Positions 1 to 60,441 of a stretch of 64,000 nt of DNA are shown piece after piece. The notes under the pieces were generated by a model that was not told the origin of the DNA, ran no database searches, and saw nothing but the letters and a program-made list of their open reading frames with translations. This DNA is from a virus. Numbering within the stretch: position 1 is the stretch's first letter; each line of letters begins with the position of its first letter. A program made the position numbers and the translations under genes. Where the stretch lies: IMG/VR virus record IMGVR_UViG_3300037010_000424, positions 1 through 64,000 of that record. One strand, 5' to 3'.

Positions 1-501
1 TTTAATAAAGCATTAAAAACATTTGGTTTATATAGACATCTAAGTTTTATGAAGTTTATACCAAAGGTTTATTTACGTGCATCCAGAGAACAACGTTTAG
101 CTATACTACAAGGGCTATTAGATACTGGTGGAACTATAACTTCACATGGTACAGTGTCATATAGCACAACTAGTGAACAGTTAGCAAAAGATGTACAGTA
201 TTTAGTTAGATCCTTAGGTGGCATAGCGTCCATAAAAAGTCGTTATACAAACTACACATATTTAAACGTTAAAAAACAAGGGAGAAAAAGTTACAATGTA
301 AATATCAGACATAAAGAACAAAGTATGTTATTTAGGTTACCAAGAAAAAAAATACTAACGAATGATAATAATCAATATGCTAAAACATTAAAGTTAAGGG
401 TAAGGTGTGTAAAGTTTGTTGGTAGAGAAGAAACTCAGTGCATTTCAATAAGTCATCCAGACCACCTATATGTAACTGATGATTTTATAGTTACACATAA
501 C
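1..501 (+). mobile_element. Intein, C-terminal half with LAGLIDADG-type endonuclease remnant
   Basis: The translation shows the intein block order seen in DOD inteins: 'KFIPKVYL' (block D), then 'LQGLLDTGG' (block E, second LAGLIDADG motif), then a splicing block ending 'VTDDFIVTHN' followed by Thr as the +1 residue. Terminal His-Asn and a Thr/Ser/Cys +1 residue are the hallmarks of C-terminal protein splicing, so splicing looks intact. The Asp expected at position 8 of LAGLIDADG is Gly here (LLDTGG instead of LLDTDG), which suggests a damaged homing endonuclease. Placement before Thr suggests insertion inside the helicase P-loop, between GK and T. The N-terminal half lies outside the window. 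Confidence 0.9.
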
Positions 502-1608
502 ACAGCAAGTTCACTATATTCCGCATACGTTCTTAAAGTTAGAGTGTCGCTTAGTATGTCCAAAGGATATATGCAGTCGTGGATTGACGACTTAGCTAAA
601 TTCTTTCATAATGATACTAGTCAATATCTGGTAATTGACAGTGGTGCAAAGTTTCGTAAAATTATAGATGATGCAAAAAATGATAAGTTGGATAATATAA
701 ACGTTATCATTTTTTCGTTAGATATTCTACGAGCTTATTTTAAAGAGTTCGAACTGACAGGTGAAAGTAGTTACGGGTGTTTACCTGAAAACTTATACCA
801 GTTGTTAGGTGTAGGCATGCGCATTTCAGATGAAGCACATGAGGATATACACTTTCAGTTTAGACACGACATCCACACCCACGTAAATAAGTCAGTGTAT
901 CTATCAGCTACAATTGAATCACTAGATGCATTTACAAACACTCTATATGCCATACTCTACCCTAAACCCACACGGCTACTAGGGTTAATTTGGGAAAAGT
1001 ATATTGTCGGTGTCTCATTAGGGTATTCTTTACGCGAGCCAAGAAGAGCACAATACACTGGTACTAAAGGGTATTCACATACTAAGTTTGAAAAATGGAT
1101 AATGAATAATCGTACAGTGAGAGAAAATTATTTTAGAATGATTCTTTTCTTTATGGAAAGAGGATTTGTTAGACATTATCAAACTGGGCATAAGTTGCTT
1201 GTTTATATGGCGACTATAAAAATGTGTGATAAATTTACTGAATATGTTAGGAAGAATATTACAAATAAAACTTTGCGTATATCATCCTTTACAGGAACTG
1301 ATGAAGCATTAGTTTTAACAGAAAACGATATATTGGTTTCAACCCCAATTAAGAGTGGAACTGGTAGAAACATTTTAGGTTTAGTGGCTGTTATTTCAAC
1401 TGTGGCTATTCAGTCTATACAAACCGTTACACAAATGTCTGGTAGAATTAGACAAATTGATAAGTTGTTTCCTGGTGTTGAACCAACTTTCTATGACCTA
1501 ATCTGCACGTCTATACCGAAACACATGGCGTACTATAAAACAAAACAAGAATTATTTAGGGGACAGTTCTTAAGTATGTCAACACATAACACTAATTTTG
1601 AAATTTAA
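1..1608 (+). CDS. SF2 DNA/RNA helicase containing an intein (5' end outside window)
   Basis: The reading frame is open from base 1 and ends at 1608, so the gene starts upstream. Bases 1-501 encode the C-terminal part of an intein and the host protein resumes at Thr (502-504). The extein carries SF2 helicase motifs in order: the T of a P-loop GKT at the splice junction, DEAH in 'RISDEAHED' (about 819-846), 'LSAT' (about 901-912) and 'QMSGRIRQ' (about 1435-1458). This is the layout of UvsW-like or other DEAH-box helicases, which unwind branched DNA or RNA. It is followed by a hairpin terminator. The helicase call is firm; the subfamily is not. Confidence 0.85.
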   Translation, partial: FNKALKTFGLYRHLSFMKFIPKVYLRASREQRLAILQGLLDTGGTITSHGTVSYSTTSEQLAKDVQYLVRSLGGIASIKSRYTNYTYLNVKKQGRKSYNVNIRHKEQSMLFRLPRKKILTNDNNQYAKTLKLRVRCVKFVGREETQCISISHPDHLYVTDDFIVTHNTASSLYSAYVLKVRVSLSMSKGYMQSWIDDLAKFFHNDTSQYLVIDSGAKFRKIIDDAKNDKLDNINVIIFSLDILRAYFKEFELTGESSYGCLPENLYQLLGVGMRISDEAHEDIHFQFRHDIHTHVNKSVYLSATIESLDAFTNTLYAILYPKPTRLLGLIWEKYIVGVSLGYSLREPRRAQYTGTKGYSHTKFEKWIMNNRTVRENYFRMILFFMERGFVRHYQTGHKLLVYMATIKMCDKFTEYVRKNITNKTLRISSFTGTDEALVLTENDILVSTPIKSGTGRNILGLVAVISTVAIQSIQTVTQMSGRIRQIDKLFPGVEPTFYDLICTSIPKHMAYYKTKQELFRGQFLSMSTHNTNFEI

Positions 1609-1618
1609 AGGTATAAGT

Positions 1619-1646
1619 GAGAGTATTTCCAGTTGGAAATACTCTC
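1619..1646 (+). terminator. Hairpin terminator after the helicase gene
   Basis: GAGAGTATTTCC, loop AGTT, then GGAAATACTCTC: a perfect 12 bp stem starting 10 bases after the helicase stop. A promoter-like motif begins four bases beyond it. Confidence 0.75.
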
Positions 1647-1649
1647 ATG

Positions 1650-1661
1650 TATATATTATCT
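1650..1661 (+). promoter_or_regulatory. Putative early promoter motif (TATATATTATCT)
   Basis: This is one of nine copies of the recurrent motif. It lies between the terminator at 1619-1646 and the ribosome binding site (GGAGG at 1666-1670) of the first gene of the paralogue array. The gap to the start codon is only 16 bases, so transcription must begin inside or immediately after the motif. Confidence 0.6.
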
Positions 1662-1677
1662 TTTTGGAGGAACTAAC

Positions 1678-2082
1678 ATGAATGGCGAAATCATTGAAAT
1701 AATATTGCCGTGTGTGATTCATACGACTAATAAACAGCAGACGAAAAGGGTACTTGAGGAATTATTACCTAGTGTGTTACTAAAATTATACACTGGAAAT
1801 ACATCTGACATCTCAGACTACATACTCACAAAAACAGTACGAGTTGTTAATAGTAATACGTATGAAATTGACAGTGACCATGATGCAGAACTCACAGGTG
1901 TTGTAAATTTTCTCGAAAGTGAACTTTTACCCTACGGGTTAGATAAAAATGTACATGATGTTTTAAGGACACACAAACCTATTAGAGCCGAGTTTTTAAA
2001 CAGTACAGGGGTGGTAGTGAAATGCCAGAGACGACGAGACGAAAACACAAGAGTGTTTCCTTTACTAATGACAACAGTGTAG
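1678..2082 (+). CDS. Small early protein, paralogue array member 1
   Basis: 134 residues, function unknown. The start at 1678 was chosen because GGAGG lies 7 bases upstream; an upstream in-frame start at 1633 would begin inside the terminator. The N-terminus 'GEIIEIILP' looks like a beta strand, followed by helical segments, and the family-type C-terminal strand is 'STGVVVKC'. The last 61 bases overlap the next gene, so the Arg-rich tail may be a by-product of that overlap. It heads a seven-gene run directly behind a promoter-like motif. Confidence 0.7.
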   Translation: MNGEIIEIILPCVIHTTNKQQTKRVLEELLPSVLLKLYTGNTSDISDYILTKTVRVVNSNTYEIDSDHDAELTGVVNFLESELLPYGLDKNVHDVLRTHKPIRAEFLNSTGVVVKCQRRRDENTRVFPLLMTTV

Positions 2083-2471
2083 ATGGTCCAAGGTTAGAGC
2101 AAGTAACTATTGTAACGGAACTATCCGCCGACTGTATAGAGGGAGAGCATAGGGATTTAATATTATCTATATTTACGGCTATTTTAGATCGTCTAAGGTA
2201 TAAACAACACATGAGTTTAGATGAACTAAACTATATGGCACAAACCGCTACATTCGATTTTGGGTATGACTACGTTATATATTTAGATGACCTAAAGACT
2301 TTTGAGTTTATTGAGGCGCATAGTTTACTGCTATATTACACAGCGGTTGTAGTAGTGGATTGTATTCATGTAGACCAAATGTTAATGGGGTATCGATTGT
2401 TTGGAAACAACGTTGAGTTTGTATTCGATCTCCCTCAAAACGGAAACGCTTATGTACATAACAGAGACTAA
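2022..2471 (+). CDS. Small early protein, paralogue array member 2
   Basis: 149 residues, function unknown. It starts inside the preceding gene, after a GGGGTGG stretch. A basic, low-complexity N-terminus of about 25 residues precedes the array fold: strand 'EQVTIVTEL', helices, then 'FGNNVEFVFDL' near the C-terminus. That strand matches the GGV-x-I-x-F ending of its neighbours. It overlaps the next gene by 20 bases, consistent with translational coupling. Confidence 0.65.
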   Translation: MPETTRRKHKSVSFTNDNSVDGPRLEQVTIVTELSADCIEGEHRDLILSIFTAILDRLRYKQHMSLDELNYMAQTATFDFGYDYVIYLDDLKTFEFIEAHSLLLYYTAVVVVDCIHVDQMLMGYRLFGNNVEFVFDLPQNGNAYVHNRD

Positions 2472-2826
2472 AATCCAATACCCAGAGATGTTTGAAATTA
2501 TTTTACCAATACCGATGAGTAGTTTTTCCACTAATCGGTTAATTGTGGATATAGCGATTTTTAAAGCATTTGTAAACGGTCTGAGCTTAGATGTGTTACA
2601 ATTTGATTTAATCTCTTACTGTTTATATAAATGTAATAGAGCGGTGAATAGCGTAGAGTACAGCCACAACTGCGCCATCGCAAGGTTTCAATATGAAGTT
2701 TATGAGTTGTATTTAACCGGAGATAATTGTGAAACCAATCTTCAAAACAAAACTCTGTGGTCAATTGAGGAGTGTTCAGGTGGGATACAGTTAAATTTAA
2801 TAAACGAGGTTTCCTATGACCATTGA
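2452..2826 (+). CDS. Small early protein, paralogue array member 3
   Basis: 124 residues from the ATG at 2452; an upstream TTG at 2401 is in frame but lies deep in the preceding gene. A start at 2488 is also possible and would place the strand 'MFEIILPIP' at the very N-terminus. The C-terminal region reads 'SIEECSGGIQLNLI', the same strand-turn-strand ending as the other array members. Function unknown. Confidence 0.65.
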   Translation: MYITETKIQYPEMFEIILPIPMSSFSTNRLIVDIAIFKAFVNGLSLDVLQFDLISYCLYKCNRAVNSVEYSHNCAIARFQYEVYELYLTGDNCETNLQNKTLWSIEECSGGIQLNLINEVSYDH

Positions 2827-3202
2827 TAGACGCTGGGACGATGTAGATGGAGTTATGGACTTCACATTACAGTACCCAATCGCTGTATACATTTTGCCAG
2901 TTGACTACACGCTATTTACAAATAGTGAACTCACTTCAACCGTATTCCTGTCGGTATATTACAACCATACACTGGATGTACTTCTTGAAGAACTTAAATT
3001 GGTATTTAACATAGATACAAATAAACATTCTGATAACAGGGTTTATAAAACAATTTGCTTCTTAGCGGAACGTTTATTTAATGTATTTAGAACTTGTTTA
3101 TGTAATGAGCTTGAGTTTATGAGGGAGTACGAAATGTCTAAAATAATAACACTTGAAAAATGTATGGGTGGGGTTACAATCGGCTTTACAATAGAGTGGT
3201 GA
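2816..3202 (+). CDS. Small early protein, paralogue array member 4
   Basis: 128 residues, overlapping the previous gene by 11 bases, with GAGG upstream. After about 20 residues comes the strand 'YPIAVYILPV', then helices. It ends 'ITLEKCMGGVTIGFTIEW', the clearest example of the array C-terminal signature L-E-x-C-x-G-G-V-x-I-x-F. No enzymatic motif was seen. Function unknown. Confidence 0.7.
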   Translation: MTIDRRWDDVDGVMDFTLQYPIAVYILPVDYTLFTNSELTSTVFLSVYYNHTLDVLLEELKLVFNIDTNKHSDNRVYKTICFLAERLFNVFRTCLCNELEFMREYEMSKIITLEKCMGGVTIGFTIEW

Positions 3203-3205
3203 TTT

Positions 3206-3715
3206 ATGAGTACATTACTGCACCAGATTTTAAAGCAAAAAGAAGAACTTGGGTTGGTTCATGATGAGTTTTTTTGCGACAATGAATCTAATTCTAGGTC
3301 AGTGGTTCGTAGCGAAATGAAACGAATTAAGAAAACTTTAGATGTGTTACTCAATATGTCTAGCGGTGTAGTGTTAACCATTCCAACAACAGTATGGTTT
3401 TTTACAAACGATAAGGTTAATCGAGAGATATTTTACGTCTTGTTTTACAATGACGATTTAGATACCCTTGACACTATAGTAAATGAAAAATTCTTTTCCG
3501 AATATAGCGTGGATGACCTTATGTCCTCTGGGTTAGTACAATCCTTATACCTATGTGCTAACGAAACGTATGATGTATTTGAGTTTTATTTAGGGCCACA
3601 CATTGGGTATTTACGTGAGAACAATTATGATACGGTGGTGCACACTGGCAAAGTGTATGGTGGGGTAAGAATATGGTTTACCACAATTGAAGAATATGAG
3701 AGGTGTTGTAAATGA
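3206..3715 (+). CDS. Small early protein, paralogue array member 5
   Basis: 169 residues, the longest member. About 50 polar, helical residues precede the array domain, which begins near 'SGVVLTIPTTVWFF' and ends 'VYGGVRIWFTTIEE'. The gene starts three bases after the previous stop and overlaps the next start codon by ATGA. Function unknown. Confidence 0.7.
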   Translation: MSTLLHQILKQKEELGLVHDEFFCDNESNSRSVVRSEMKRIKKTLDVLLNMSSGVVLTIPTTVWFFTNDKVNREIFYVLFYNDDLDTLDTIVNEKFFSEYSVDDLMSSGLVQSLYLCANETYDVFEFYLGPHIGYLRENNYDTVVHTGKVYGGVRIWFTTIEEYERCCK

Positions 3716-4128
3716 ATGATGTCGAAGTGGTTATACCATTAACAAGATATAACGTGTGTAAAGATTCAGTGGGGTTGTTAGAGTGGCTTGTCGCAGAGTA
3801 TATTCGTTCAGGTTTACATACTACTAAATTTGAAGAATTTAGCGATATGGATATGTTACATTTCCATTTGTATACATACGAAGAAATACACGATTTAGTT
3901 ATACAGCTTAGAGAAGAGGATGCTGCCGATGAAGCGGCTGCCGATGCTGTACAGGTGGCTGAAGCTATGGAAGTCCTTATGCTAATAGTGGGCGATTTGG
4001 ATGCGTTTTTAGCAACTAAGGTAGCCGCTACCTTAGCTGAACGAGTACAAGATGGGGCACTGGTGTTGGAGAATGTTTATTCAGTTTCTAATAACAGTGT
4101 GGTTTTACAGTTCGAAAGTTTGGTGTAG
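3712..4128 (+). CDS. Small early protein, paralogue array member 6
   Basis: 138 residues, joined to the previous gene by an ATGA overlap. It begins directly with the array strand 'NDVEVVIPL'. An acidic, Ala/Asp/Glu-rich segment in the middle (around residues 66-83) is not found in its neighbours. It ends 'LENVYSVSNNSVVLQFESLV'. Function unknown. Confidence 0.7.
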   Translation: MNDVEVVIPLTRYNVCKDSVGLLEWLVAEYIRSGLHTTKFEEFSDMDMLHFHLYTYEEIHDLVIQLREEDAADEAAADAVQVAEAMEVLMLIVGDLDAFLATKVAATLAERVQDGALVLENVYSVSNNSVVLQFESLV

Positions 4129-4132
4129 TGCC

Positions 4133-4573
4133 ATGAATAACACCGATGTAGAAGTGATAATCGATTTACCAAACGTACACGATTTGTTATTAGACTCTGA
4201 TACATTCGAAATGGTTTTAATAGAATACATTAGTTCCTTACAGGTGTGTGGTGAAATTTTCGAGCAGACTATAGACGACGTAAACCAAAATGCTATACGG
4301 ATTAACCGATTAAGTGATCTAACCGAATACCTAGTGTACAACCAAGATTACGAAGACACTGACAGTGAGGGAAATAGTGAGGAAATGGAACAGTTAGAAA
4401 CAGAGGTTCATAACTGTAACGATAACTTGCTACCTATATCCGGGATTATAGATGAGTTTTTTACTTCTGCGTCAGGTAGAAAACTTTTACTGGACATTGA
4501 AGAAAACGACTGGATGTTAGAAAATATTATACCGTACTCAGAAAACTCAGTTATGTTTATATTTATAACATAA
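4133..4573 (+). CDS. Small early protein, paralogue array member 7
   Basis: 146 residues from the ATG at 4133. The longer frame starting at 4052 would run through the preceding gene. The N-terminus 'NNTDVEVIIDLP' and the end 'MLENIIPYSENSVMFIFIT' align well with member 6, so these two look like the most recent duplicates. An acidic linker lies near residues 70-85. It is the last gene of the unit, before a palindromic terminator. Function unknown. Confidence 0.7.
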   Translation: MNNTDVEVIIDLPNVHDLLLDSDTFEMVLIEYISSLQVCGEIFEQTIDDVNQNAIRINRLSDLTEYLVYNQDYEDTDSEGNSEEMEQLETEVHNCNDNLLPISGIIDEFFTSASGRKLLLDIEENDWMLENIIPYSENSVMFIFIT

Positions 4574-4576
4574 AGC

Positions 4577-4610
4577 ACTGCCACCTGCCTATTAATAGGC
4601 AGGTGGCAGT
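4577..4610. terminator. Bidirectional terminator, perfect 34-base palindrome
   Basis: ACTGCCACCTGCCTATT followed by its exact reverse complement. It separates the converging plus-strand array from the minus-strand tail-type gene and could end transcription in both directions. Confidence 0.75.
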
Positions 4611-4617: not shown

Positions 4618-5064
4618 TCAAAGTCCTAATTCTTTTGTTACATCGACTATGATATTATTTTTAGCCTTAGCTTTTTCGATAGCCACTTCTCGTGCCACTT
4701 CAATCAAATTATGTAGGTCATAAATATACATGTTTAATAACGACGATATAGATTCACCTGTTATTTCAGGAATTCCCCATTTCATTAATTTTTTTGACAC
4801 TAACCTAGAGATGGTATCTTTAAAGTAATTTGTGTTTTCAGAGAATGTAACCAGAGCAAAAGGTTTATTGTCGATTACCAATCCAAGTCTTTCACTAACC
4901 ATTTCTTTTATTAAAAGTTGGTTAGTGACAGTGTGAAAGTTATCGATACATAAAACGTCCCCAAGTAGATTGTCTGCTTGAAGACGCTTCGTGGCCCTAT
5001 CGCCACGAACATTTATAATACACCGAGTAGCTAACTCTGGTATCTCCAGTACATTAGGGTAGTA
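4618..5064 (-). CDS. -1 frame extension of the zinc-ribbon tail-type gene
   Basis: This frame (about 148 codons) has no convincing start of its own. The first ATG is at 4902, but the frame is open and protein-like upstream to the T7 run at 5064-5070. Read through a -1 slip from the upstream gene, the product continues 'NSFF' with 'YYPNVLEIPELATRC'. The C-terminus is helical and Lys/Glu-rich, and no known domain was recognised. It is either the second half of a frameshift fusion (about 715 residues in total) or the product of an indel in a homopolymer. Confidence 0.55.
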   Translation of the reverse strand, partial: YYPNVLEIPELATRCIINVRGDRATKRLQADNLLGDVLCIDNFHTVTNQLLIKEMVSERLGLVIDNKPFALVTFSENTNYFKDTISRLVSKKLMKWGIPEITGESISSLLNMYIYDLHNLIEVAREVAIEKAKAKNNIIVDVTKELGL

Positions 5065-6764
5065 AAAAAACTGTTCAGATTCACCGCTATTAGCTTATTA
5101 GCATCATCCTCATTTGTAGTTTGACCATGTTTGCATTCCGGGCATGGGAAGTTAGGCACACCTGCAAATGTCATAGTGTATTTTTCTTTCATGGTCTTAG
5201 CCAACTTAGTAACCGCTTGCAAAGATTCCGGATTTGCTGAGTACGCCTCATTCAGTTGAGTAAGTATAGCTTGTGGACTGTTAATGTATTTACGACCAGC
5301 AGTGGGGTTATTTACATCCTTAATTTCGATATACTTAATGTAAGGGGTGTACTTGCCCAACGAAATATCTGCCGCGTATTTTAACGCTCTATTTTTGCGG
5401 AAATTAGCATATGCACGCTCTGGCATATTTGCTTTTCTATTTTGGTCAATTGTAATCGCAATGTGTGTTTCAATACCAGCCACCCATTTGTTAGCTTCAG
5501 TTACATACTCTAACAAATTTGGAATTTTAAATTTAACAGTGTGTACAGTCTCAACACCATACGAGTTGTTTTCAAGGAATACCTGCTCACTATTAAACTC
5601 AACGGCAAATGTATCTTCACGACGTTTTTGATAAGCTTTAACCTCTTCTATCGTTACAGTTTTTTTGCTCCAATGCTCTATGTCTTCAGCCGTTAACATT
5701 TCCATACGGGTGTGTGTTAGTAAACTGAAATCCAAAAGTGAGTCTGGTAAGTACGTACCATCTGGCCCTTTGGCAGAAACTAGATTGTAATCACACTCTG
5801 GGTTAGAACAAGGGTGCCATACTGGGTACCCACGAGGGTATATTGCCGCTAGTAACCCTGCTTTAATCTGCACCAAATCCGTTATTAGAAGTAACTCTTT
5901 TAATCGGTTTCTGTCAAACAGCCGCTTGTTAATTTCATCAACGTTTGTACCAGTTACTTTGTCCACAAACATTTCGATTATAGATGTATTGATCGCAACG
6001 TCGTCACCAGTGTATGATGCCCCAGCAGTAGATTTACCAATGGTGTCATCGGACATAGCTAACATAGTGCAGAATGTACTAAGCTCAGTCGTAGTGAATG
6101 GACTTATAATAAGCCGTACCCCACTAGCAAAACAACATGTGCCTGCGCCAATTGACAAACCACTGGTCTGTAAAGCGTGATTTGTGGCAGCAACACCATC
6201 CATATTCTCGGGTGTATTTTTTGCACTTTGTGTCAGGTAGTTGACCCCTAACTTATTACCGGTATTAGTAGTTAAACGTTGTTTTGTATGCGGGTTATCT
6301 TTGAACCACGTGTGATAGTTAGTGCCTTCCGGAAACGAGTTTTCACTGAGTACAACGTATTCCTGCATCAATTGTGCAATTTTTTGATACTCTGGGTCTT
6401 CTCCATACTGCTTAGGGTTTAACGTTTTTATTTTTTCCATATCAGCTATAAATTGTTCAAATATATCGCTTATACTGGAAATTGTATTTTCCTCCATAGC
6501 TAACACGTGGGTAGTTTCAAATAAAACTTTATCACGTATGTTTTCAGTTGTATACGGATTAGTGATAGGTTCGTATGCCATTTTCGCAACTACCACTTCT
6601 TCTTCTGGTTCTTCTATTGCTTCTTCAGGTAATTCACCGTAGACTACTTCTTCTGGTGCATCGTGGTTCCACGCATCTTCCTCAAGTAAAGGTTGTTCAC
6701 CTTTTATTCTCACGGTTCGCCCACCTACCGTACTAGTTGGACCATTATATTCTTGTGTCATCTG
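5031..6764 (-). CDS. Zinc-ribbon tail or baseplate assembly protein (short form)
   Basis: 577 residues from the ATG at 6764, which has GGAG upstream; the frame also extends to 6797. The N-terminus is acidic. Two cysteine clusters are visible: 'HPCSNPEC' in the middle and 'CPEC' at residues 541-544, the latter followed by '...NLNSFF'. A Cys-x2-Cys ribbon followed by a terminal FF is a pattern I associate with T4 gp26/gp51-like baseplate hub assembly proteins; this is a weak resemblance. The zero-frame product ends ten residues after the T7 slippery run. It overlaps the upstream gene by 20 bases. Confidence 0.6.
   Translation of the reverse strand, partial: QMTQEYNGPTSTVGGRTVRIKGEQPLLEEDAWNHDAPEEVVYGELPEEAIEEPEEEVVVAKMAYEPITNPYTTENIRDKVLFETTHVLAMEENTISSISDIFEQFIADMEKIKTLNPKQYGEDPEYQKIAQLMQEYVVLSENSFPEGTNYHTWFKDNPHTKQRLTTNTGNKLGVNYLTQSAKNTPENMDGVAATNHALQTSGLSIGAGTCCFASGVRLIISPFTTTELSTFCTMLAMSDDTIGKSTAGASYTGDDVAINTSIIEMFVDKVTGTNVDEINKRLFDRNRLKELLLITDLVQIKAGLLAAIYPRGYPVWHPCSNPECDYNLVSAKGPDGTYLPDSLLDFSLLTHTRMEMLTAEDIEHWSKKTVTIEEVKAYQKRREDTFAVEFNSEQVFLENNSYGVETVHTVKFKIPNLLEYVTEANKWVAGIETHIAITIDQNRKANMPERAYANFRKNRALKYAADISLGKYTPYIKYIEIKDVNNPTAGRKYINSPQAILTQLNEAYSANPESLQAVTKLAKTMKEKYTMTFAGVPNFPCPECKHGQTTNEDDANKLIAVNLNSFFTTLMYWRYQS
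5064..5070 (-). other. Candidate -1 ribosomal frameshift site (T TTT TTT)
   Basis: On the minus strand the zero-frame codons are AGT TTT TTT ACT. The heptamer T_TTT_TTT fits the X_XXY_YYZ rule for simultaneous -1 slippage. A hairpin with an ACC(A)GAGT stem and an ACTC-GGT partner lies about 22 bases downstream and could stimulate slippage. The -1 frame is open for 148 codons and the zero frame stops after ten. Confidence 0.45.
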
Positions 6765-7395
6765 TATTCTCCATTGATTGGTTTTGTTTAATTTCAAGTT
6801 CTTTATAGTGTTTTTCGATTATAGCTTGTGCAACGTACATATTTGCTTGCATTGGAGCTAGTATCTTTAGGGTGTCATCAGATAAAGAATCTAACTCTGA
6901 CATAGCGGCATTGTAACGCAAGAAACTTTCAGCTGTAACCCTTCCATGGTCATTAATTACTTTGATGTTAATGAGCTTGTTACTAAAATACTGTATGTCA
7001 CTAAGGTAGGTTTTAAGGATAGATGGTGTTATTTCAGTGAGGGCTAATACCTCAGCTGGTAATGAGGCAAAATAGTGTGCACTTCTTGTAACATCCTGTA
7101 CAATAGAACTTTGTTTAGCGTAGTCACTCTTTAGTACATTCCAGTTGTCACTAGACTTAACCATTTTTTTAGCCTGCTTGTGACTAATTTCAGACGAACT
7201 ACGCTGTGTGATTTTAATAGTAACCTTTTCTAACCGCTCTCTTTTTAATGGGCTTAAGTTGTTAATCGCCATTACTGGATCCACTTCATCAAATTTATGA
7301 TTAATTGGCTTAGGTTGAGACGTGGTTACACTTGGTAATTTTGATACCTTGAATAATGTGGCTACATCTTCAATCGGCTTTTCTGTTTGTGGCAT
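6745..7395 (-). CDS. Uncharacterised protein upstream of the tail-type gene
   Basis: 216 residues from the ATG at 7395, placed 9 bases after GGAG; the ATG at 7401 would be only 3 bases away. The protein is hydrophilic and helical with a basic middle region ('SHKQAKKMVKSS'). No domain was recognised. It is co-transcribed with and overlaps the zinc-ribbon gene, so a role in tail or baseplate assembly is an inference from context only. Confidence 0.6.
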   Translation of the reverse strand: MPQTEKPIEDVATLFKVSKLPSVTTSQPKPINHKFDEVDPVMAINNLSPLKRERLEKVTIKITQRSSSEISHKQAKKMVKSSDNWNVLKSDYAKQSSIVQDVTRSAHYFASLPAEVLALTEITPSILKTYLSDIQYFSNKLINIKVINDHGRVTAESFLRYNAAMSELDSLSDDTLKILAPMQANMYVAQAIIEKHYKELEIKQNQSMENTDDTRI

Positions 7396-9704: not shown

Positions 9705-10403
9705 ATGGCACAACAACCACAAACCAATAAACAAATCCCAGTAGTCGATACAACTAAACCCAATGTACAACCGCCAGTGCTACCGGAGGTCACAGTGACT
9801 GCTGCCGAAACTGAAATTAAAGGTACGGAAGAAAAAATTGACGGTAAAGCCGCCGAAGGAACTTTACTGGACAATCCACTCGAACAATCAGCCGCCATTG
9901 ATAAACCGGAAGTAGCCACTGGCGATTCGGATACAGAAAACGCTCCTCTGGAAGAAGAATTAATCCTTTGCCCAGATGCACTCATCAATAAACAGTTAGT
10001 TCGTGGTCTGGAAGGTATCCGTGAACTATTTGAAACGAGTCAGATGTCTAATGTCGGCCCATTCCATGTGGATACCTATAACTCGTTGTCTCGCGCTTTA
10101 ACAGTGCTTTCATGGGAAGATACTAAAACAACACTGGACAACTTGTTTTTGTATATGGAAAAATACAGTGAGGGACATTGTCACCAAAATAACATTCTCC
10201 AAAATGTAACATTTTGTAAGTTGTCGAAAAGTGCACAACTCGAGTACACTAAACTTATAAGTTTATTCGTGTCATTACAGAACCCAAGTAGTCGTGGTGT
10301 AACAGCTAAAGCCATCAACTGGAACACAGTCCCAGCCGGGTTTACAGCAGCCCACGGCAATGATTACACTGACAAGTTTAAACGCTACTTCAACATTCAT
10401 TAA
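9705..10403 (+). CDS. Putative virion protein with Pro/Thr/Glu-rich N-terminus
   Basis: 232 residues. The first 85 residues are disordered-looking, rich in Thr, Pro, Glu and Val, with several AxE-type sites that a prohead protease could cut. The C-terminal 150 residues form a compact helical domain ('VRGLEGIRELFETS', 'LSRALTVLSWED'). Codon use is less AT-biased than in the surrounding accessory genes, as in other well-expressed phage virion genes here. No named family was recognised. Confidence 0.6.
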   Translation: MAQQPQTNKQIPVVDTTKPNVQPPVLPEVTVTAAETEIKGTEEKIDGKAAEGTLLDNPLEQSAAIDKPEVATGDSDTENAPLEEELILCPDALINKQLVRGLEGIRELFETSQMSNVGPFHVDTYNSLSRALTVLSWEDTKTTLDNLFLYMEKYSEGHCHQNNILQNVTFCKLSKSAQLEYTKLISLFVSLQNPSSRGVTAKAINWNTVPAGFTAAHGNDYTDKFKRYFNIH

Positions 10404-10451
10404 AAAATAATACACGCGCTTATAGTCTGTAAGAACTCATCGGTAAGATAA

Positions 10452-10464
10452 ACATACATTATCT
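10452..10464 (+). promoter_or_regulatory. Putative early promoter motif (ACATACATTATCT)
   Basis: A one-mismatch copy of the consensus ACATATATTATCT. It is the first element of the gene-poor stretch 10404-10782 and would drive the structured leader, the 23-residue ORF and possibly the DUF4326 gene. Confidence 0.55.
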
Positions 10465-10594
10465 TTGGGTAATACAAATCTCCACTTACTCTGGAGTTGT
10501 TAACTAGCGTTAAAGTTAACTGTAGATTCGTCTACATTCGCATTGTTGGTTAGTACAATAACTATTTTTTCATTTATTATAAAAGGTTAAAGTT
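10465..10594 (+). other. Structured leader RNA region
   Basis: This stretch contains several hairpins in a row: CTCCA-CTTACTC-TGGAG, TTAACT...AGTTAA, and TGTAGA-TTCG-TCTACA at 10521-10536 with a UUCG tetraloop. No long ORF is present. It fills part of the 379-base gap between 10403 and 10783 and could be a regulatory leader or a small RNA. No known riboswitch was recognised. Confidence 0.4.
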
Positions 10595-10666
10595 ATGAGA
10601 AAATCACACTTGTACACTGGGTGCGGTTATGGGTCTAGTAAAAGTCCCGTGGCTACAACGTGGTAA
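10595..10666 (+). CDS. Possible 23-residue peptide
   Basis: ATG at 10595 follows AAAAGG by 8 bases and reads 'MRKSHLYTGCGYGSSKSPV', ending at TAA 10664-10666. It is Gly/Ser-rich with no family match. It may be a real small protein or a chance ORF in a structured RNA. Confidence 0.3.
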   Translation: MRKSHLYTGCGYGSSKSPVATTW

Positions 10667-10721
10667 ATTCGAAACTACGGCTTCATACCAAGTCGCAGTC
10701 TCGGCGTAGCATCTAATGAAA

Positions 10722-10747
10722 CACCACAGCCTGAAACGGCTGTGGTG
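10722..10747 (+). terminator. Hairpin upstream of the DUF4326 gene
   Basis: CACCACAGCC, loop TGAAAC, GGCTGTGGTG: a perfect 10 bp GC-rich stem followed within 20 bases by a T-rich run (TTTATTTTTTG). It lies between the small ORF and the next gene, so it may terminate or attenuate transcription from 10452. Confidence 0.5.
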
Positions 10748-12666: not shown

Positions 12667-13302
12667 ATGTCAAAAACAAATGTAGCTGAATCACGAGTAA
12701 CCGTTGATGTAGCGTTTCTGATTGATTTATTTGACCACCACAATGTGGACTGGAAATCGTGGAAGGTTAAAACGCTGGATAACCTTGTTGACGATTTATC
12801 AAAATCTGAAAGAACAATTACCTATACCAACGGTGAAATTGCGTTGAACTCCCGGGTGGTTTCGTGTGAAATATATTTTGGTGGTAAACAATTAATCGAA
12901 ACACAATTAAAGTCGCCAACTGGAACACTTAACCGAAATATCCCATGTGGTGGAAAACTGGCGTTACGTGAAGATCCAAGAGGTGGTATGATACGAGAGC
13001 TAAAAGAGGAACTCGGATTAGACTTAGAACCTACATATCTAGGTGTGACTAAAGAAGAAAGACACCAGTCGTATTATCCTGGTCTCCTAGGGGTTGTAAC
13101 ACATTACCGTTTTGCTACACCTTTACACCCAAACCAGTATAAAGAATCGTACGTCCACACTGAAGGTGATATCACATTTACGTTTAACTGGGTAGATGCA
13201 AATGATTTACTAGTCGTTCATCATACACCGCAACGTGACAGGATACTTTCTCCACAACTGAGTAATGTGAAAGCTGTGCATGTTGCAGAATGGATGGGTT
13301 AG
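12667..13302 (+). CDS. NUDIX hydrolase
   Basis: 211 residues, with GGGGG nine bases upstream of the ATG. Residues 96-118 match the NUDIX box exactly: G96-x5-E102-x7-R110-E-L-x-E114-E115-x-G117-L. This box binds metal and cleaves nucleoside diphosphate linkages. 'YYPGLLGVVTHYRF' and 'FTFNWVDANDLL' fit the flanking NUDIX fold strands. An N-terminal extension of about 60 residues could confer substrate choice. The substrate cannot be told from sequence: ADP-ribose, dinucleotides or RNA caps are all possible. The promoter-like motif upstream suggests early expression. Confidence 0.9.
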   Translation: MSKTNVAESRVTVDVAFLIDLFDHHNVDWKSWKVKTLDNLVDDLSKSERTITYTNGEIALNSRVVSCEIYFGGKQLIETQLKSPTGTLNRNIPCGGKLALREDPRGGMIRELKEELGLDLEPTYLGVTKEERHQSYYPGLLGVVTHYRFATPLHPNQYKESYVHTEGDITFTFNWVDANDLLVVHHTPQRDRILSPQLSNVKAVHVAEWMG

Positions 13303-41225: not shown

Positions 41226-41792
41226 ATGAAATATGTATTTCAAAGATTTACAATGGCTATAGTGTTTACAATGGCGTCTTTTAGATTTTATAAAGATAGC
41301 ATTGTAAATGAACAACCGTCTGCACTATGTTTATACTGGGCGTTCATTGCAACAATTTATGTAAGAGAGTTGGATAAAATAAAACCCGCTAATAAAGTTT
41401 TTACTAAATCAATCTTGTCTAATGCAACACATGACGTTAATGTACATAGTGCAAAATTAGATACATTAACTGACGAACAGGTGTTGGTTTTGTGTAAAAT
41501 AATTAAGTACGAAATGGCACCCTTAATAAAAAGATACATACGTGGAAAAATTTCTATATTCAAACTATATAGAGTTTTTGATTACCATTTACTTGATACC
41601 GAAAGTGTTTACCACAATCGATTGTTGGACCTTGGGACTAGTGTGGATACGTTGAACTCCGTCCACGCATATTTATATTCGACAATGCGTTATATCGTGT
41701 TAAGTGGTTCTGTTGAATGGTTTCAGCGTATAACAACGCTGTATTCAGAAAACGTAATTAAATTTTCACAACCGTTTAATTTTATAGCTTAA
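41226..41792 (+). CDS. Uncharacterised early protein
   Basis: 188 residues with AGGAG upstream. The N-terminus is weakly hydrophobic ('FTMAIVFTMASF', 'LYWAFIATIYV'), so membrane association is possible; the rest is helical and basic. It is a single-gene unit between a promoter motif and a hairpin terminator, inserted between the capsid and RNA polymerase genes. Confidence 0.6.
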   Translation: MKYVFQRFTMAIVFTMASFRFYKDSIVNEQPSALCLYWAFIATIYVRELDKIKPANKVFTKSILSNATHDVNVHSAKLDTLTDEQVLVLCKIIKYEMAPLIKRYIRGKISIFKLYRVFDYHLLDTESVYHNRLLDLGTSVDTLNSVHAYLYSTMRYIVLSGSVEWFQRITTLYSENVIKFSQPFNFIA

Positions 41793-54421: not shown

Positions 54422-54895
54422 TTAGATTATTGGGATTGGTAAGTCGGCTAATGCAGAAGTAATGTCCGGGTATGATAACTCCTTCTCTTTAATTTTATAA
54501 GCACGTATATTACAATCGATTACCCACTTATTTACAACTATAGCTTCATCTTGATATTCGTTACTAAACATCGCTAATGTACTAACTTCATTAACATCTT
54601 TAAATTTAAAATGGTCGTTTGTAACCGTTTTGGTAACGAACGTTTCAATTTCCATTGCTAACGTTAAATGTAAACGATTGTTTTCCGATGTAAAAGGTTT
54701 ACCATCGGTACCAACTTCTAACGTCCTACCTGCACTCAATTCATTTCGTATAGTTAAATATTCGTCAGTTGTGATTGCGACTGAGTCTTCAGGAAACGAT
54801 TTGTGAATTTTAGAACTGTAGAACCCGAATGTGGTTTTAGAAAAGAATAACTCCTCCCCAATATCACCCAATAATTTATCTTTTACTACACTCAT
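54422..54895 (-). CDS. Tail-fibre assembly chaperone-like protein
   Basis: 157 residues from the ATG at 54895, which overlaps the fibre stop by ATGA and has GGGGAG upstream; the frame also extends to 54961. 'TTDEYLTIRNELSAGRTLEV' followed by 'GTDGKPF' is the common fibre-chaperone (Tfa/gp38-type) pattern, in which a Thr-x-Glu/Tyr helix leads to a Gly-rich turn and G-x-P. Chaperones of this type trimerise the fibre encoded just upstream. Confidence 0.6.
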   Translation of the reverse strand: MSVVKDKLLGDIGEELFFSKTTFGFYSSKIHKSFPEDSVAITTDEYLTIRNELSAGRTLEVGTDGKPFTSENNRLHLTLAMEIETFVTKTVTNDHFKFKDVNEVSTLAMFSNEYQDEAIVVNKWVIDCNIRAYKIKEKELSYPDITSALADLPIPII

Positions 54896-56211
54896 ACCAC
54901 TCTCCCCATTGCAAACAGCCAGCCTGCCAAACTCTGTGTACCCGTGGTTGCAATATAGCATCCTGAATTAGGGTATGGAAAATTAAACTGATCGACACCA
55001 ATTTGTGAATCTGCGTTACTGACAACTCCAGCGTTACACCACAGTACCGGTGGTGAAACAAATGCTAAATTAAACCACACGGTAACCTGGCCGTCCAAAT
55101 ACGAGATGTTTGGGGTTATAAGCCACTGTATACACCACCCACCATACAGGTATTTAACTCCACCATTTGGTAAATCGGCAGCGTCAAAAGCATAATGGAT
55201 TTCACTTCTGATAGTATTGTCCCGATTGACTAAATCGTTATATAGGCTGGTATCCCTATCAAATAGAATATTATACAAACTTGTGGCTCTGCTGTAATTG
55301 GCATTATAGTTATCGGTTATGTTTGTGTTAAGTGTGGTTACGGCTGTATCGATTCTTGTGTTAAGTGTGGCTACAGCATTGTTTATCTTACTAAATAACG
55401 TATCATAATTGGTGGAGATGAGAGTGTTAATTGGAGCTATAAGTCTGTTAAATGCAGCTGTTGCATTTTGTACAATACTTAAAGAAGTCCATGCTCTAGG
55501 TGTAGTGTCAGTGCCGGCTTCTGCCACAGCTTGATTAGGTACACTAGATTTTAACACATACCCACTTAAATCCGGTGGTGTGTAGTCAAGGGTTAAAGAA
55601 TCCAATTTACCTTGAATAAACCCTAAGTCTCCAGCAACAGAATCGATTCTATCTATTAGGTCGTTAAATATAACCGTTGGGGAAAGTGTAGTTCGAGAAA
55701 CTGTACCGAGTAATCTACTCAATAAAAAGATAGTTCTTCCGTTATTAAAGATATCTGGACGAACCGTGTCTGCACTTACAACATAATCACCCTGTACTAA
55801 TTTCCACGAATTAAAGTCTAATCTATCAAAACTACCTAAGTCAATAATTTGCTGTAAAAGGATAGCGTCATTTTCACACCCTACAGCCTGATAATTAATT
55901 GTAGCACTAGTCCATAGACTAACATCTTTTAAAAGGATGTAGCTATATACAATCGCCCCAATGACATCAATTTGTTTACTGTATGGTGGGGACCACTCAA
56001 AGTCTATATTCGGAACCAATTGGACCGTTACATTGTCAGACAACCGTACAGCGGTTACAGTGAATCCGTTTTGATAAAATGCACCTTGTTTTGGAAAAAT
56101 AGCACATTGTGTTATTGGAAACACAACTTCATTTTTAATATTATTCCCTATTAACGTACCACTAGGGTCATAGACCACAGTAATCGCATTGGGTATTGGT
56201 GGTGTAGGCAT
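54892..56211 (-). CDS. Tail fibre protein 1
   Basis: 439 residues. The N-terminal about 130 residues share a docking-domain layout with the fibres at 58205 and 62638 ('GAFYQNGF', 'IDFEWSPPY', 'INYQAVG'). Then 'DLSGYVLKSSVPNQAVAEAG' with 'PRAW', heptad repeats with Leu/Ile/Asn ('INNAVATLNTRIDTAV'), and a Trp-rich C-terminal tip domain. GGAG precedes the start. Confidence 0.75.
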   Translation of the reverse strand: MPTPPIPNAITVVYDPSGTLIGNNIKNEVVFPITQCAIFPKQGAFYQNGFTVTAVRLSDNVTVQLVPNIDFEWSPPYSKQIDVIGAIVYSYILLKDVSLWTSATINYQAVGCENDAILLQQIIDLGSFDRLDFNSWKLVQGDYVVSADTVRPDIFNNGRTIFLLSRLLGTVSRTTLSPTVIFNDLIDRIDSVAGDLGFIQGKLDSLTLDYTPPDLSGYVLKSSVPNQAVAEAGTDTTPRAWTSLSIVQNATAAFNRLIAPINTLISTNYDTLFSKINNAVATLNTRIDTAVTTLNTNITDNYNANYSRATSLYNILFDRDTSLYNDLVNRDNTIRSEIHYAFDAADLPNGGVKYLYGGWCIQWLITPNISYLDGQVTVWFNLAFVSPPVLWCNAGVVSNADSQIGVDQFNFPYPNSGCYIATTGTQSLAGWLFAMGRVV

Positions 56212-56340: not shown

Positions 56341-56359
56341 TAATTACTTGGGGAATGAA

Positions 56360-56893
56360 ATGAACTACGTTAAGTTATTAAAAGAGTCGTTTGTTGCTGT
56401 GTTAAATACATACAAGTGGGTGATGGATATTCAAGTGAATAGATTTACGACTTTTAAACCATTCACTGACTGGAATGGAATTCCAGTTATAAAGAGCACA
56501 CACCTGATGCGATTACGATTAGGTGATTACCATTCGCCTATGAACAACGCCTGTGCATCAGCAGGTGAAAACATCATAGTTATCCCAGACCATTGGGATG
56601 AATTACCAGAAGAGTTTAAACTCTTCATGTTATACCACGAGGAAGGACATATTCGAGGTAAACACTTCTTGACTACACCAACTGAAAACGCTGGTAAGGC
56701 GCGTTCAAAGTTTATTAAATGTGGGTTAGTTATGCCAGAGGAATTAGAAGCTGACAAATTCGCTTTTGATAACTTAGGATTAGACATTAGTGTATCAGCA
56801 TTACAAGTTTGTAAAACTCTAGTAGCAAATGATGCACGTGGTAGAATCCATAGTGAAATCGATATGCGTATTGAAAAACTACGTAGTTACTAA
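56360..56893 (+). CDS. Zinc metallopeptidase, small
   Basis: 177 residues from the ATG at 56360 with GGGGAA upstream; a TTG at 56348 is in frame. 'YHEEGH' (HEEGH at 93-97) is an HExxH zinc site and 'PEELEADKFA' (E128-D132) provides the ExxAD element expected 30-40 residues later, as in ImmA/IrrE-like and M48-like peptidases. It has no signal peptide or membrane helix, so it would act in the cytoplasm. It is a single-gene early-type cassette inserted in the tail-fibre locus. Confidence 0.8.
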   Translation: MNYVKLLKESFVAVLNTYKWVMDIQVNRFTTFKPFTDWNGIPVIKSTHLMRLRLGDYHSPMNNACASAGENIIVIPDHWDELPEEFKLFMLYHEEGHIRGKHFLTTPTENAGKARSKFIKCGLVMPEELEADKFAFDNLGLDISVSALQVCKTLVANDARGRIHSEIDMRIEKLRSY

Positions 56894-56904
56894 AACGTTA
56901 AGTT

Positions 56905-56936
56905 ATCTAATTCCCCCGAATTCGGGGGAATTAGAT
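56905..56936. terminator. Bidirectional terminator, perfect 32-base palindrome
   Basis: ATCTAATTCCCCCGAA and its exact reverse complement, followed by a T-rich stretch on the plus strand. Confidence 0.8.
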
Positions 56937-56958
56937 TTCTCTTCCAATCGTTTTTTTT

Positions 56959-57168
56959 TTATTCAATCACCAGTTTACCATTTGGACATTCGATTTTAAA
57001 TTCTTCAATCTTTATTACCAGTGTTCGTTTCTCAACTACGTTCATTGTATCTGTTGCTTCTTTAGGTGGAATCGTCAATCCACGAGAACAGTCAATTGTT
57101 TCACACCCGCTCAAGTTAAATATCATGTTCAGAATTAGACACGGTAGATACAGATTTGTTAATCTCAT
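56959..57168 (-). CDS. Small lipoprotein
   Basis: 69 residues from the ATG at 57168. It has a typical lipoprotein signal: 'MRLTNLYLPCLILNMIFNLSGC', with lipobox LSGC at residues 19-22. The mature peptide would be 48 residues with Cys26 and Cys near the C-terminus. It could be an outer-membrane spanin part or a superinfection-exclusion lipoprotein. No partner inner-membrane spanin is adjacent, so the first is unproven. Confidence 0.65.
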   Translation of the reverse strand: MRLTNLYLPCLILNMIFNLSGCETIDCSRGLTIPPKEATDTMNVVEKRTLVIKIEEFKIECPNGKLVIE

Positions 57169-57189
57169 CGAGTTCACCTTTGACATTAA

Positions 57190-57774
57190 TTAAAGTTTTG
57201 GAAATTTATACAAATGAAAGTTTACATTTGTGTCTGGAAATAAAACATGGCTATTTGATGAAACCAGTTTTATCAATTTACTAAAGCCACACTTTGTAAA
57301 GTTTGGCGTGTCGAATAACACAAGTGTCACATCTGTTTTAAGGTCAGCTGAAATACACCTGAGGAAATCTACATCAATCGCTAATAAGCACGATACCCAG
57401 CAGCCAATCCCGCTGGAGTATGCGATTACAGTTGCAAAGTCATCTTGTCGCATTTCTTTCAGTACACTGTATAAATTTGTTTCTTTTACAGAACTGTAAA
57501 TGTTATACGCATCTAAATACGTATAAATATCACTGTCTGAAATATCTAATTTTCTAAGTGTTGAGTAGTTGTGTTTGGTTAACAACTGAAGTTTTTCGAC
57601 GTGTGGGTGTATTTGGTCTAGATGTATAGATATGACAATTGTTTTATCAACGGCATATACTTTAACTGAACACTCCGTTCGTTCTAGTGCTTCATTGCAT
57701 TCACACTGAACAACCGATGCGTATGTATATAATGCCGTTAAATCATTTACGGAGTCTAACATACGCCAACCCAT
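57190..57774 (-). CDS. Possible alpha/beta-hydrolase (class 3 lipase-like)
   Basis: 194 residues; the ATG at 57774 or 57762 could be the start. 'ATVIAYSSGIGCWVSCLLAI' with 'VTLVLFDTPNFTKCGFSKLI' follows the lipase-3 layout: a strand and nucleophile Ser in S-x-G, then V-x-x-x-x-F-x-x-P. The canonical G-x-S-x-G is altered to Y-S-S-G-I-G, so activity is uncertain. It lies between a fibre chaperone and a lipoprotein, in keeping with a cell-surface role. Confidence 0.4.
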   Translation of the reverse strand: MGWRMLDSVNDLTALYTYASVVQCECNEALERTECSVKVYAVDKTIVISIHLDQIHPHVEKLQLLTKHNYSTLRKLDISDSDIYTYLDAYNIYSSVKETNLYSVLKEMRQDDFATVIAYSSGIGCWVSCLLAIDVDFLRCISADLKTDVTLVLFDTPNFTKCGFSKLIKLVSSNSHVLFPDTNVNFHLYKFPKL

Positions 57775-57780
57775 TATAAT

Positions 57781-58203
57781 TTATAAAAACATATCGTCAG
57801 ACATAACTGTGTCTAAATTAAGAACTGTGTGTAAAAACTCTTGAACGTTTGGGTCTGAATACGATATGGCACCATTACACTCCCAGGTTAAACGAAATAT
57901 ATTAGATCGTGGTAAAGTGTCAATGTAAGTAAAGATATCGTCCAGGAAACGATATTTGTCTAAGTTTAAACAAAACTGTAATTTTGGAACTGATAACGCG
58001 TTACGTTTCTCATCACTCGATAACTCGGGTGGAGTAACTACTATTGGGCTACCATCTTTATCAGCTGAAATAATTTTCCCTAAACTTTGCTGCATCAATA
58101 AAAACGCATGATGCTCTAACTCTACTTCAACTAAATCATCTGGTAATTCAGCGTACTGAATGTCGTTTGGAAAAAACCCGTTGAGGCTTGCACTATATCT
58201 CAT
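57781..58203 (-). CDS. Tail-fibre assembly chaperone (Tfa/gp38-like)
   Basis: 140 residues. The start 'MRYSASLNGFFPNDIQYAEL', then 'PDDLVEVELEHHAFLL' and 'GKIISADKDGSPIVVTPPEL', followed by a C-terminal helical part ending 'LDTVMSDDMFL', fits the Tfa pattern of gp38-like fibre chaperones. It is encoded two bases after the fibre gene at 58205, its likely client. Confidence 0.75.
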   Translation of the reverse strand: MRYSASLNGFFPNDIQYAELPDDLVEVELEHHAFLLMQQSLGKIISADKDGSPIVVTPPELSSDEKRNALSVPKLQFCLNLDKYRFLDDIFTYIDTLPRSNIFRLTWECNGAISYSDPNVQEFLHTVLNLDTVMSDDMFL

Positions 58204-58204: not shown

Positions 58205-59620
58205 TTAGTTTCCTATTGCTACCCAATATCCATTAAGTGGATTTGGTGATACTGCGTTAAATAAAACTGATGTTGCTACATTAAAACCTGCCAATGTAAC
58301 TTCGCCCGTAGTTACATCAACGAAACATATCGCACCACCACCGCCAATATGCGTAGCCACTATAGATTCCACAGCTTGTGGGAACATAATTGGAAATGTA
58401 ATATGTAGTTTTCCATTGGACCCAGTTATAAAATTACCACGTTGCGTTATAGTCCCTTCTGGTGTGCGAGAATATCCAGTACCACTTTTAAAACTATCGC
58501 TATAATGAAGTGCCCCACTTCCAGAAATCGCATGGTATTTCACTCCGTCGCTTAATAAAGTGATATTGTCCCCCGGTAGTAAAGGTATTCCACTTAATAC
58601 ATTTGCACCAATAACAATGGGGTCTCCATAGATGGTGACCGGGCCAACACCCTCGTTGACGTACTCAGTTCTTTTTCCTGACATTGCTACTACGTCTGGG
58701 ACTCGTATTGAAATTGCGTTAATTTGTTGACACAACACTGTGCCGCCAGCAATAAAACTCTCTAACGAGACATCAGTCGTAACTACGTTGATACTAGATG
58801 ACAATACCCCATTTTTAAGAATAGCGTCATATACTCTTTTTGAGCTCCAAGCTCTTGGTAAAATAGACAGCCCAGCTTCAGCTTCTGACTGGGTTGGCAT
58901 ATCAGATTTTAGTAAATATGGAGACAGATCTATCGGTGTGGCCGCTTGTAGTAGCATAGCCTTAAGTGAATCTATCTGTGCTTGTAATCCAGAAATAGTC
59001 GTTACCATCCCATTAAACTCCTGCTTAATGTATTCTAACCATTCAGCTGGTGTATCTAGGTTTTTACTGATTAACTCTAATTCTCTGGAGAGTATGTACA
59101 CGTTAGAAGTTTGACTAAGTAAATCATCAATGTTTAATTTATTAAACGCCTCGGCATCACCAACCAAACTAGCCCACACCGTTAAATCGTTTTGGTCAAA
59201 CACACCAAGTCTACCAATCTCCGCCATTAGCACTTGGTCAACAATAGCACCAACCGCATGGTAAGATAAGTGTATAGACATCCATTTACTTTTGTCTATT
59301 AAGATGATGTAGCTATATGCGTCGAGTCCTAATAGTTGTTTAATGATATTAAACTGTGGAGAATAGATATAGTCTACACCTAGTTCCAACGTAATTAAAG
59401 TTGGTGTGGGAGAGACATCTGTTTTAAGGGTACCTTTAACCATAAGTCCGCCACTATAGAACGGACCGTTTTTTGAAAACACTACAGGTGATAAAGTCGT
59501 AGTAGATATTTCGTTAGGGAAGTAGTTACCTGCTCGTAAACCCGTTGGGTCAAATAACACTCCTGGGTCAGAGCCCATTCCATCCTCGTCAAAATCACCA
59601 TTGAATAATTGTGTGCTCAT
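58205..59620 (-). CDS. Tail fibre protein 2
   Basis: 471 residues from the ATG at 59620, with AAAGGAT upstream. It shares the N-terminal docking layout ('YFPNEIS', 'GPFYSGGL', 'VDYIYSPQF', 'LSYHAVG') and the linker 'DLSPYLLKSDMPTQSEAEAG' with 'PRAW' with fibre 1. The C-terminal tip is Gly/Ser/Thr-rich, with 'GAICFVDVTTGEVTLAGF', and is unrelated to the tip of fibre 1. This is the usual pattern of receptor-binding variation on a constant base. Confidence 0.75.
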   Translation of the reverse strand: MSTQLFNGDFDEDGMGSDPGVLFDPTGLRAGNYFPNEISTTTLSPVVFSKNGPFYSGGLMVKGTLKTDVSPTPTLITLELGVDYIYSPQFNIIKQLLGLDAYSYIILIDKSKWMSIHLSYHAVGAIVDQVLMAEIGRLGVFDQNDLTVWASLVGDAEAFNKLNIDDLLSQTSNVYILSRELELISKNLDTPAEWLEYIKQEFNGMVTTISGLQAQIDSLKAMLLQAATPIDLSPYLLKSDMPTQSEAEAGLSILPRAWSSKRVYDAILKNGVLSSSINVVTTDVSLESFIAGGTVLCQQINAISIRVPDVVAMSGKRTEYVNEGVGPVTIYGDPIVIGANVLSGIPLLPGDNITLLSDGVKYHAISGSGALHYSDSFKSGTGYSRTPEGTITQRGNFITGSNGKLHITFPIMFPQAVESIVATHIGGGGAICFVDVTTGEVTLAGFNVATSVLFNAVSPNPLNGYWVAIGN

Positions 59621-59660
59621 TTTACATCCTTTAGTTATTAAGGTGGTCGTGTTTAAAGAA

Positions 59661-59694
59661 TGTGGCAGCCAGTGGATATCCACTGGCTGCCACA
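59661..59694 (-). terminator. Perfect 34-base palindromic terminator
   Basis: TGTGGCAGCCAGTGGAT and its exact reverse complement, between the fibre 2 start and the end of the preceding minus-strand gene. Confidence 0.75.
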
Positions 59695-59719
59695 CCATAT
59701 ACGGTACTAATGTAAAACT

Positions 59720-60388: not shown

Positions 60389-60393
60389 TTTTT
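60344..60393. repeat. Direct repeat copy 1 (50 bases)
   Basis: Identical to 60715-60764. It covers the start codon and first 15 codons of the gene at 60388. Confidence 0.85.
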
Positions 60394-60441
60394 ATTTACC
60401 AAATGTAATGTAAAAATTGGTTTCAAAAAGCATACTGTCGA

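Follow-up and report, generated by a model that had tools for sequence, protein, structure and literature searches.

A tandem array of seven small genes behind an early-type promoter, next to the core helicase gene of a phiKZ-like jumbo phage

The window analysed here comprises positions 1-64000 of a virus contig of 70,462 bases (IMG/VR record IMGVR_UViG_3300037010_000424). Between positions 1678 and 4573 of its + strand lie seven open reading frames (ORFs), which overlap or abut in a tightly packed operon directly 3' of a superfamily 2 (SF2) helicase gene. The original prediction of a seven-gene array was confirmed, as all seven ORFs are present at these coordinates and occur in the same order in a closely related phage, the sister described below. 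They were named g1 (1678..2082, 134 amino acids (aa)), g2 (2022..2471, 149 aa), g3 (2452..2826, 124 aa), g4 (2816..3202, 128 aa), g5 (3206..3715, 169 aa), g6 (3712..4128, 138 aa) and g7 (4133..4573, 146 aa). The start of g3 was set at the ATG at 2452; the sister has a GTG at the aligned position. Neighbouring genes overlap by 61 bp (g1 and g2), 20, 11 or 4 bp and are otherwise separated by 3-4 bp. The products, of 124-169 aa, are mostly acidic, with isoelectric points from 4.05 to 5.8; the net charge is -19 for g6 (isoelectric point 4.15) and -29 for g7.

The motif ATATATTATC is located at 1651..1660 (+), 17 bp upstream of g1, and a ribosome-binding site, GGAGG, was read from the sequence at 1666..1670 (+). 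The motif occurs 6 times on the + strand of the window's contig (0.2 expected per strand) and 16 times on the + strand of the sister (0.5 expected), and on the - strand of neither. Nearly all sites in both phages precede genes, and the consensus built over 22 sites is AAACATATATTATCTNNNTG. The copy in front of the array is kept in three phages: the window's phage, the sister, at the same place, and a further relative, L017 (IMGVR_UViG_3300045806_000063), in which hairpin, motif, GGAGG and g1 follow each other as in the window. In the sister the same motif also precedes a chimallin-like gene and a tubulin-like gene, which we take to be PhuZ from its GGTGS motif. The motif is similar to the EL promoters AAACCTAMATTATY, two annotated promoters of Pseudomonas phage EL reading AAACCTAAATTATT and AAACCTACATTATC. 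A scan for σ70 promoters found fewer than in shuffled sequence. The array shows the AT-rich motif of ~10 nucleotides characteristic of early operons served by the virion RNA polymerase (PMC7598289), and, according to a review, computationally found motifs 5' of presumed early operons have been confirmed as early promoters in all transcript-profiled jumbo phages that encode RNA polymerases (PMC7598289). Because of its enrichment, its conservation, its likeness to the EL promoters and this promoter class, early transcription of the array is likely, with the virion RNA polymerase as the probable reader of the motif.

Just 5' of the promoter motif, the terminator-like scan detected a hairpin at 1617..1648 (+, z -7.4), which has a counterpart in L017 and probably marks the end of the helicase transcript. 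At the other end, a palindrome with a 15-bp stem (4577..4610, z -7.2) separates the array from convergent genes; its T-richer tail is on the - strand. Both the promoter motif and the bounding palindrome of the original prediction were thus recovered.

None of the seven proteins matched Pfam, PHROGs or PADLOC above chance level, in agreement with the earlier statement that no family could be recognised. Searches of the PDB by sequence with the g4 and g6 alignments gave nothing beyond chance, and the invariant positions of the array proteins contain no catalytic residue pattern. Relationships within the array were analysed using phmmer with a search space of the seven proteins, which linked g4 to g5 (about 1e-9), g3 to g4 (4e-6) and g6 to g7 (1e-5). 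Profiles of orthologue pairs were then compared by hhalign against 24 control families from the same phages (264 control comparisons, maximum score 20.8). Scores of 53, 37 and 36 were obtained for g5 with q3 of L017, g6 with g7 and g4 with g5, respectively. This profile comparison, which had been proposed as a check, therefore placed g4-g5 and g6-g7 above the controls, whereas g3-g4 (17.0) and every score of g1 and g2 against the remaining array fell within the control range. No significant similarity between the groups g3-g4-g5 and g6-g7 was found by phmmer or by hhalign against the controls. The claim of seven diverged paralogues is thus backed by sequence within g3-g4-g5 and within g6-g7 and overstated for g1 and g2, which have no significant similarity to the others. 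For at least five genes, the description as an array of diverged paralogues with an early-type promoter and without recognised family is correct. We infer that g1 and g2 belong to the same family; judged by eye, their sequences appear compatible with the same order of structural elements.

All seven proteins had also been said to share their N- and C-terminal ends. Regular expressions for both terminal motifs were composed after the array had been seen, so the following counts are post hoc. The C motif is present in all seven proteins, but the N motif only in six, g2 lacking it. Both motifs together occur in 6/7 array proteins, compared with 0/30 for the phage's other small genes; of the five array proteins of L017, each expression matched a single one (1/5).

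AlphaFold models were obtained for g4 (7-row alignment; predicted local distance difference test, pLDDT, 82.7; predicted template modelling score, pTM, 0.74) and for g6 (5-row alignment; pLDDT 74.6, pTM 0.69), from input alignments with no sequence in common. The g4 model has strands at residues 22-27, 109-116 and 119-125 and helices at 31-34, 37-48, 53-63, 71-94 and 96-104; that of g6 has strands at 4-9, 117-125 and 129-136 and helices at 13-40, 56-66, 75-100 and 103-113. The two models agree in the predicted element order β-α-α-α-α-β-β and in most element lengths, so that the structure prediction suggested for members 4 and 6 points to a shared topology. In these models the N motif corresponds to β1 and the C motif to the β2-β3 hairpin. 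In g5, an N-terminal extension of ~45 residues precedes a g4-like domain. Compared with the PDB by structure, neither model reached Z >= 5 with any chain among those looked at, and a Foldseek comparison of g4 with the PDB yielded nothing below E 2. For g6, T7 Ocr was top among the PDB chains (Z 4.3 over 76 residues). An Ocr-type DNA mimic, which is an all-helical and strongly acidic dimer, does not fit g6, which is acidic but has a three-stranded sheet in its model.

The sister phage (IMGVR_UViG_3300035661_000011, 154,505 bases) aligns colinearly with almost the entire window contig and carries the seven array genes in the same order, with 58-83% identity (69% for g1, 72-73% for g2). The ratios of nonsynonymous to synonymous substitution rates (dN/dS) of the array genes between window and sister are 0.07-0.26, compared with a median of 0.094 for the other genes, and the array genes rank between 6 and 36 of 67 in identity. 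The array is under purifying selection and evolves only moderately faster than other genes. The fast divergence claimed earlier is not supported by these values or by the one-to-one, ordered orthologues. In L017, whose helicase is 51% identical, the array locus comprises five genes: the first is the g1 orthologue (28% identity, 3e-14), the third is g5-like (2e-7) and the fifth aligns loosely to g6/g7. No other close relative was detected: tblastn of the seven proteins had no match at E 10 among 50,697 phage records, scans of viral contigs with g5, g6/g7 and g4 recovered the sister only, a scan with the L017 query recovered its own contig only, and a scan of genome contigs found no relative. 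Further copies of the array families were found neither elsewhere in the window contig nor in the sister. The g3-g5 profile matched weakly (0.005) an early gene at 41226, the middle region alone aligning; this gene (41226-41792, 188 aa) lies behind an early promoter. A small gene of the sister (10329-10733), between PhuZ and DNA polymerase, has array-like termini (VVLP, NNNLLVHTVSY).

The position directly behind the core helicase, referred to here as the slot, holds the array in the window, the sister and L017 and small genes in EL, RisingSun, Aphrodite1 and the Aeromonas phage D3. In EL (AJ697969), ORF041-ORF043 (141, 126 and 159 aa) follow the helicase ORF040 and resemble the array in being small, overlapping or abutting, and in the same slot; they differ in being three instead of seven and in showing no significant sequence similarity. 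The slots of RisingSun (gp46-49, of which gp46-gp48 are PHROGs 33564, 38307 and 34825), Aphrodite1 (gp84-87) and D3 (D3_0068-0069, 180 and 168 aa) hold proteins of similar size, some of them matched by the g4 or g6 models, but with only 2-4 genes and sequences that cannot be aligned with the array proteins. Four genes are present in BUCTxx100 and three each in ZPAH34, L032, L033, L036 and L037; the Moabite slot holds other genes. Position for position, the proteins in the slots of EL, RisingSun and L032-036 are orthologues (e.g. EL043-L32c 4e-24, EL042-L36b 2e-17). The best phmmer link among slot proteins to the window was that of g7 to slot gene 4 of BUCTxx100 (E 0.011).

The g4 and g6 models were compared with viral protein models using Foldseek, with best E-values of 0.015 and 0.0012, respectively. 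Within the top 50, 17 of 25 named rows for g4 and 23 of 31 for g6 came from phiKZ-like phages, a group assignment that is partly our own, and 14 targets were common to both lists. Targets were placed on genomes by protein length and accession order. In EL, Q2Z139 and Q2Z138 correspond to ORF042 and ORF043 in the slot, both among the matches of g4 and g6, and Q2Z163 to ORF018; in D3, A0A514TVL5 and TVL4 correspond to the two slot genes D3_0068 and 0069. By length, RisingSun A0A223LHC0 corresponds to gp46, Joad A0A223LJC4 to RisingSun gp47 and Aphrodite1 A0A2I7QI51 to gp86. The slot members were matched with E 0.02-0.6 and template modelling (TM) scores of about 0.31-0.45. The chance of such a concentration in the slot, a rough and post-hoc estimate, is 4e-4 for EL and 3e-5 for D3. 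Other targets, PhiPA3 gp041 and gp044 and 201phi2-1 gp74, gp78 and gp80, belong to clusters of small proteins (gp038-gp045 and gp74-gp80, respectively) which resemble the array in having several closely spaced small proteins matched by the models but lie at another locus, between the PhuZ and DNA polymerase genes.

Common descent with the slot genes of EL, RisingSun, Aphrodite1, D3 and others is supported by the models but not proven; it is a structural and positional argument, because profiles do not join the slot families to those of the window. The undescribed set of the original prediction is accordingly undescribed in having no recognised family, but EL and other jumbo phages have genes at the same position, and structural similarity suggests a kinship. 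What is added here is this probable link of the array to same-slot arrays elsewhere. Several observations weigh against it. The Foldseek matches are individually weak (best E 0.0012, TM mostly 0.3-0.5), and their enrichment in phiKZ-like phages may partly reflect the abundance of small proteins in such phages. No hhalign comparison of window families with EL or RisingSun slot families exceeded the controls, and the EL slot has no annotated promoter in front. In phiKZ the slot is filled by small hydrophobic, probably membrane, proteins, small hydrophobic proteins being present in PhiPA3 as well, and in the Vibrio phages BONAISHI and pir03 by ClpP-like genes. This last pair is annotated as protease subunits, whereas the array proteins have no Pfam match above chance level, on which ground ClpP was dismissed as an identity for them.

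Taken together, the array may well be an early operon that occupies a fixed slot for accessory genes, directly 3' of the core SF2 helicase gene, and that has grown by tandem duplication, its copies having taken on separate jobs. It resembles an old family of conserved position that has expanded locally, rather than an isolated hypervariable array, because it is retained in the sister and because its individually weak Foldseek matches are mostly in phiKZ-like phages, several of them at the helicase slot. The original prediction had instead proposed that such genes counter variable host defences, each protein blocking a different anti-phage system and diversifying in an arms race. The small size and acidity of the proteins, the early-type promoter, the tandem duplicates and the absence of a recognised family would suit this explanation, as would the large change in gene number and sequence at greater distance (7, 7 and 5 genes) and the first rank of T7 Ocr for g6, though with a Z of 4.3 only. 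However, between the two close relatives there is no gain, loss or positive selection, and the purifying selection does not suggest an arms race, although it is compatible with one. The only match to a defence family, that of PADLOC to Csn2, was at chance level. The DNA of these phages is thought to be shielded (PMC12908238), which lowers the need for protection against DNA-targeting systems, but not against RNA-targeting or abortive ones. A counter-defence role is therefore possible but unsupported, and we consider it doubtful.

The strict one-to-one retention and order in two phages could also be expected if the paralogues were subunits of one hetero-oligomeric phage machine, for example at the infection vesicle, the nuclear shell or the phage RNA polymerase, with one paralogue per position. 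Gene overlaps fitting stoichiometric co-translation and the adjoining RNA polymerase and helicase genes are consistent with this. It is nevertheless unlikely, as copy number varies among relatives (7 and 5, with 3-4 in other slots) and the array is absent from the helicase site in several phages. Equally improbable is that the array consists of two separate small duplications, g3-g5 and g6-g7, which share no ancestry with each other or with the two genes next to them, and that the agreement in fold and slot is a coincidence of simple α/β proteins. This would explain the lack of sequence similarity of g1 and g2 to the remainder, the low TM-scores and the failure of profiles to link families of different phages, but not that two independent models have the same seven-element order, that the motifs co-occur in the array (post hoc) or that the matches concentrate in the slot. 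Virion structural proteins, which the nearby head proteins phiKZ gp79/gp80 might suggest, are very improbable products of an array with an early-type promoter and no structural PHROG or Pfam match beyond chance level.

The phage that carries the array is a phiKZ-like jumbo phage, with a major capsid protein of phiKZ type (PF25620, 2.9e-96), and is probably nucleus-forming. As in the Chimalliviridae, the gene order of its core SF2 helicase and RNA polymerase genes is conserved, and a gp80 relative is present (3.4e-57); for chimallin, the sister's 19239-21197 matches phiKZ gp54 (8e-4), the window's own contig being a fragment. The helicase gene (49..1608, +), truncated by the contig start, is related to phiKZ gp75 and RAY gp250, which we take to be equivalent from annotation and our own matching, and is a core gene of nucleus-forming phages. 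The product of the core gene RAY gp250 localises to the phage nucleus (PMC10299810). The P-loop of the helicase (GMGK/C...HN/T) is interrupted by an intein that contains a LAGLIDADG domain; residues ~1-151 in the window (49-501) represent its end, and it is also found in L004 (1773-4403); the L017 helicase has no intein. On the 3' side, relatives of phiKZ gp76.4 (4618..4902, -; 1.7e-8) and of phiKZ gp77 (phrog_4585; 5031..6797, -; 1.6e-9) follow.

Elsewhere in the window, 12667-13302 encodes a protein with a Nudix-like motif, GGKLALREDPRGGMIRELKEELGL. Two small genes beside fibre genes (54422-54961 and 57781-58203) are similar to each other (profile comparison, probability 65), and the products of 54892-56211, 58205-59698 and 62638-63612 have a common N-terminal region near PNE and PFYSGGL and are probably tail-fibre or baseplate paralogues. 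Adjacent small genes at 59720-62101 with similar N-termini (MSSTNPQIKSRADAL and MSNVDSQNRATAIL) form another tandem-duplicate set, probably tail-related. Region 56351-57987 is 93-94% identical to the sister, compared with 75-86% over most of the genome, which suggests recent exchange.

If the array is indeed an early operon grown by duplication in the accessory slot, one small β-α4-β2 domain would have been duplicated in tandem and its copies would have diverged, each retained for a separate job. The injected virion RNA polymerase would make the products in the first minutes. The early-type control, the acidity, the multi-copy scaffold and the stable one-to-one retention suggest small acidic, non-enzymatic binding modules with one partner each, in which each protein may use the common scaffold to bind its own partner, from the host or from the phage, during take-over or nucleus assembly. 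More tentatively, the array could represent an undescribed β-α4-β2 early-protein family of phiKZ-like phages, present as tandem arrays at two constant positions, one following the core helicase and the other flanked by PhuZ and the DNA polymerase, in which fold and position are kept, sequence similarity is lost, and local duplication has led to seven copies here. To our knowledge, the function of most early genes of nucleus-forming phages is not known and their relatives between genera are undetectable. If fold and position are constant, such orphan early genes could be grouped, and a small set of relatives in the laboratory phages EL, PhiPA3 and 201phi2-1 would become available for functional tests. 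It would also mean that a lineage can enlarge such a gene set by duplication without hypervariability.

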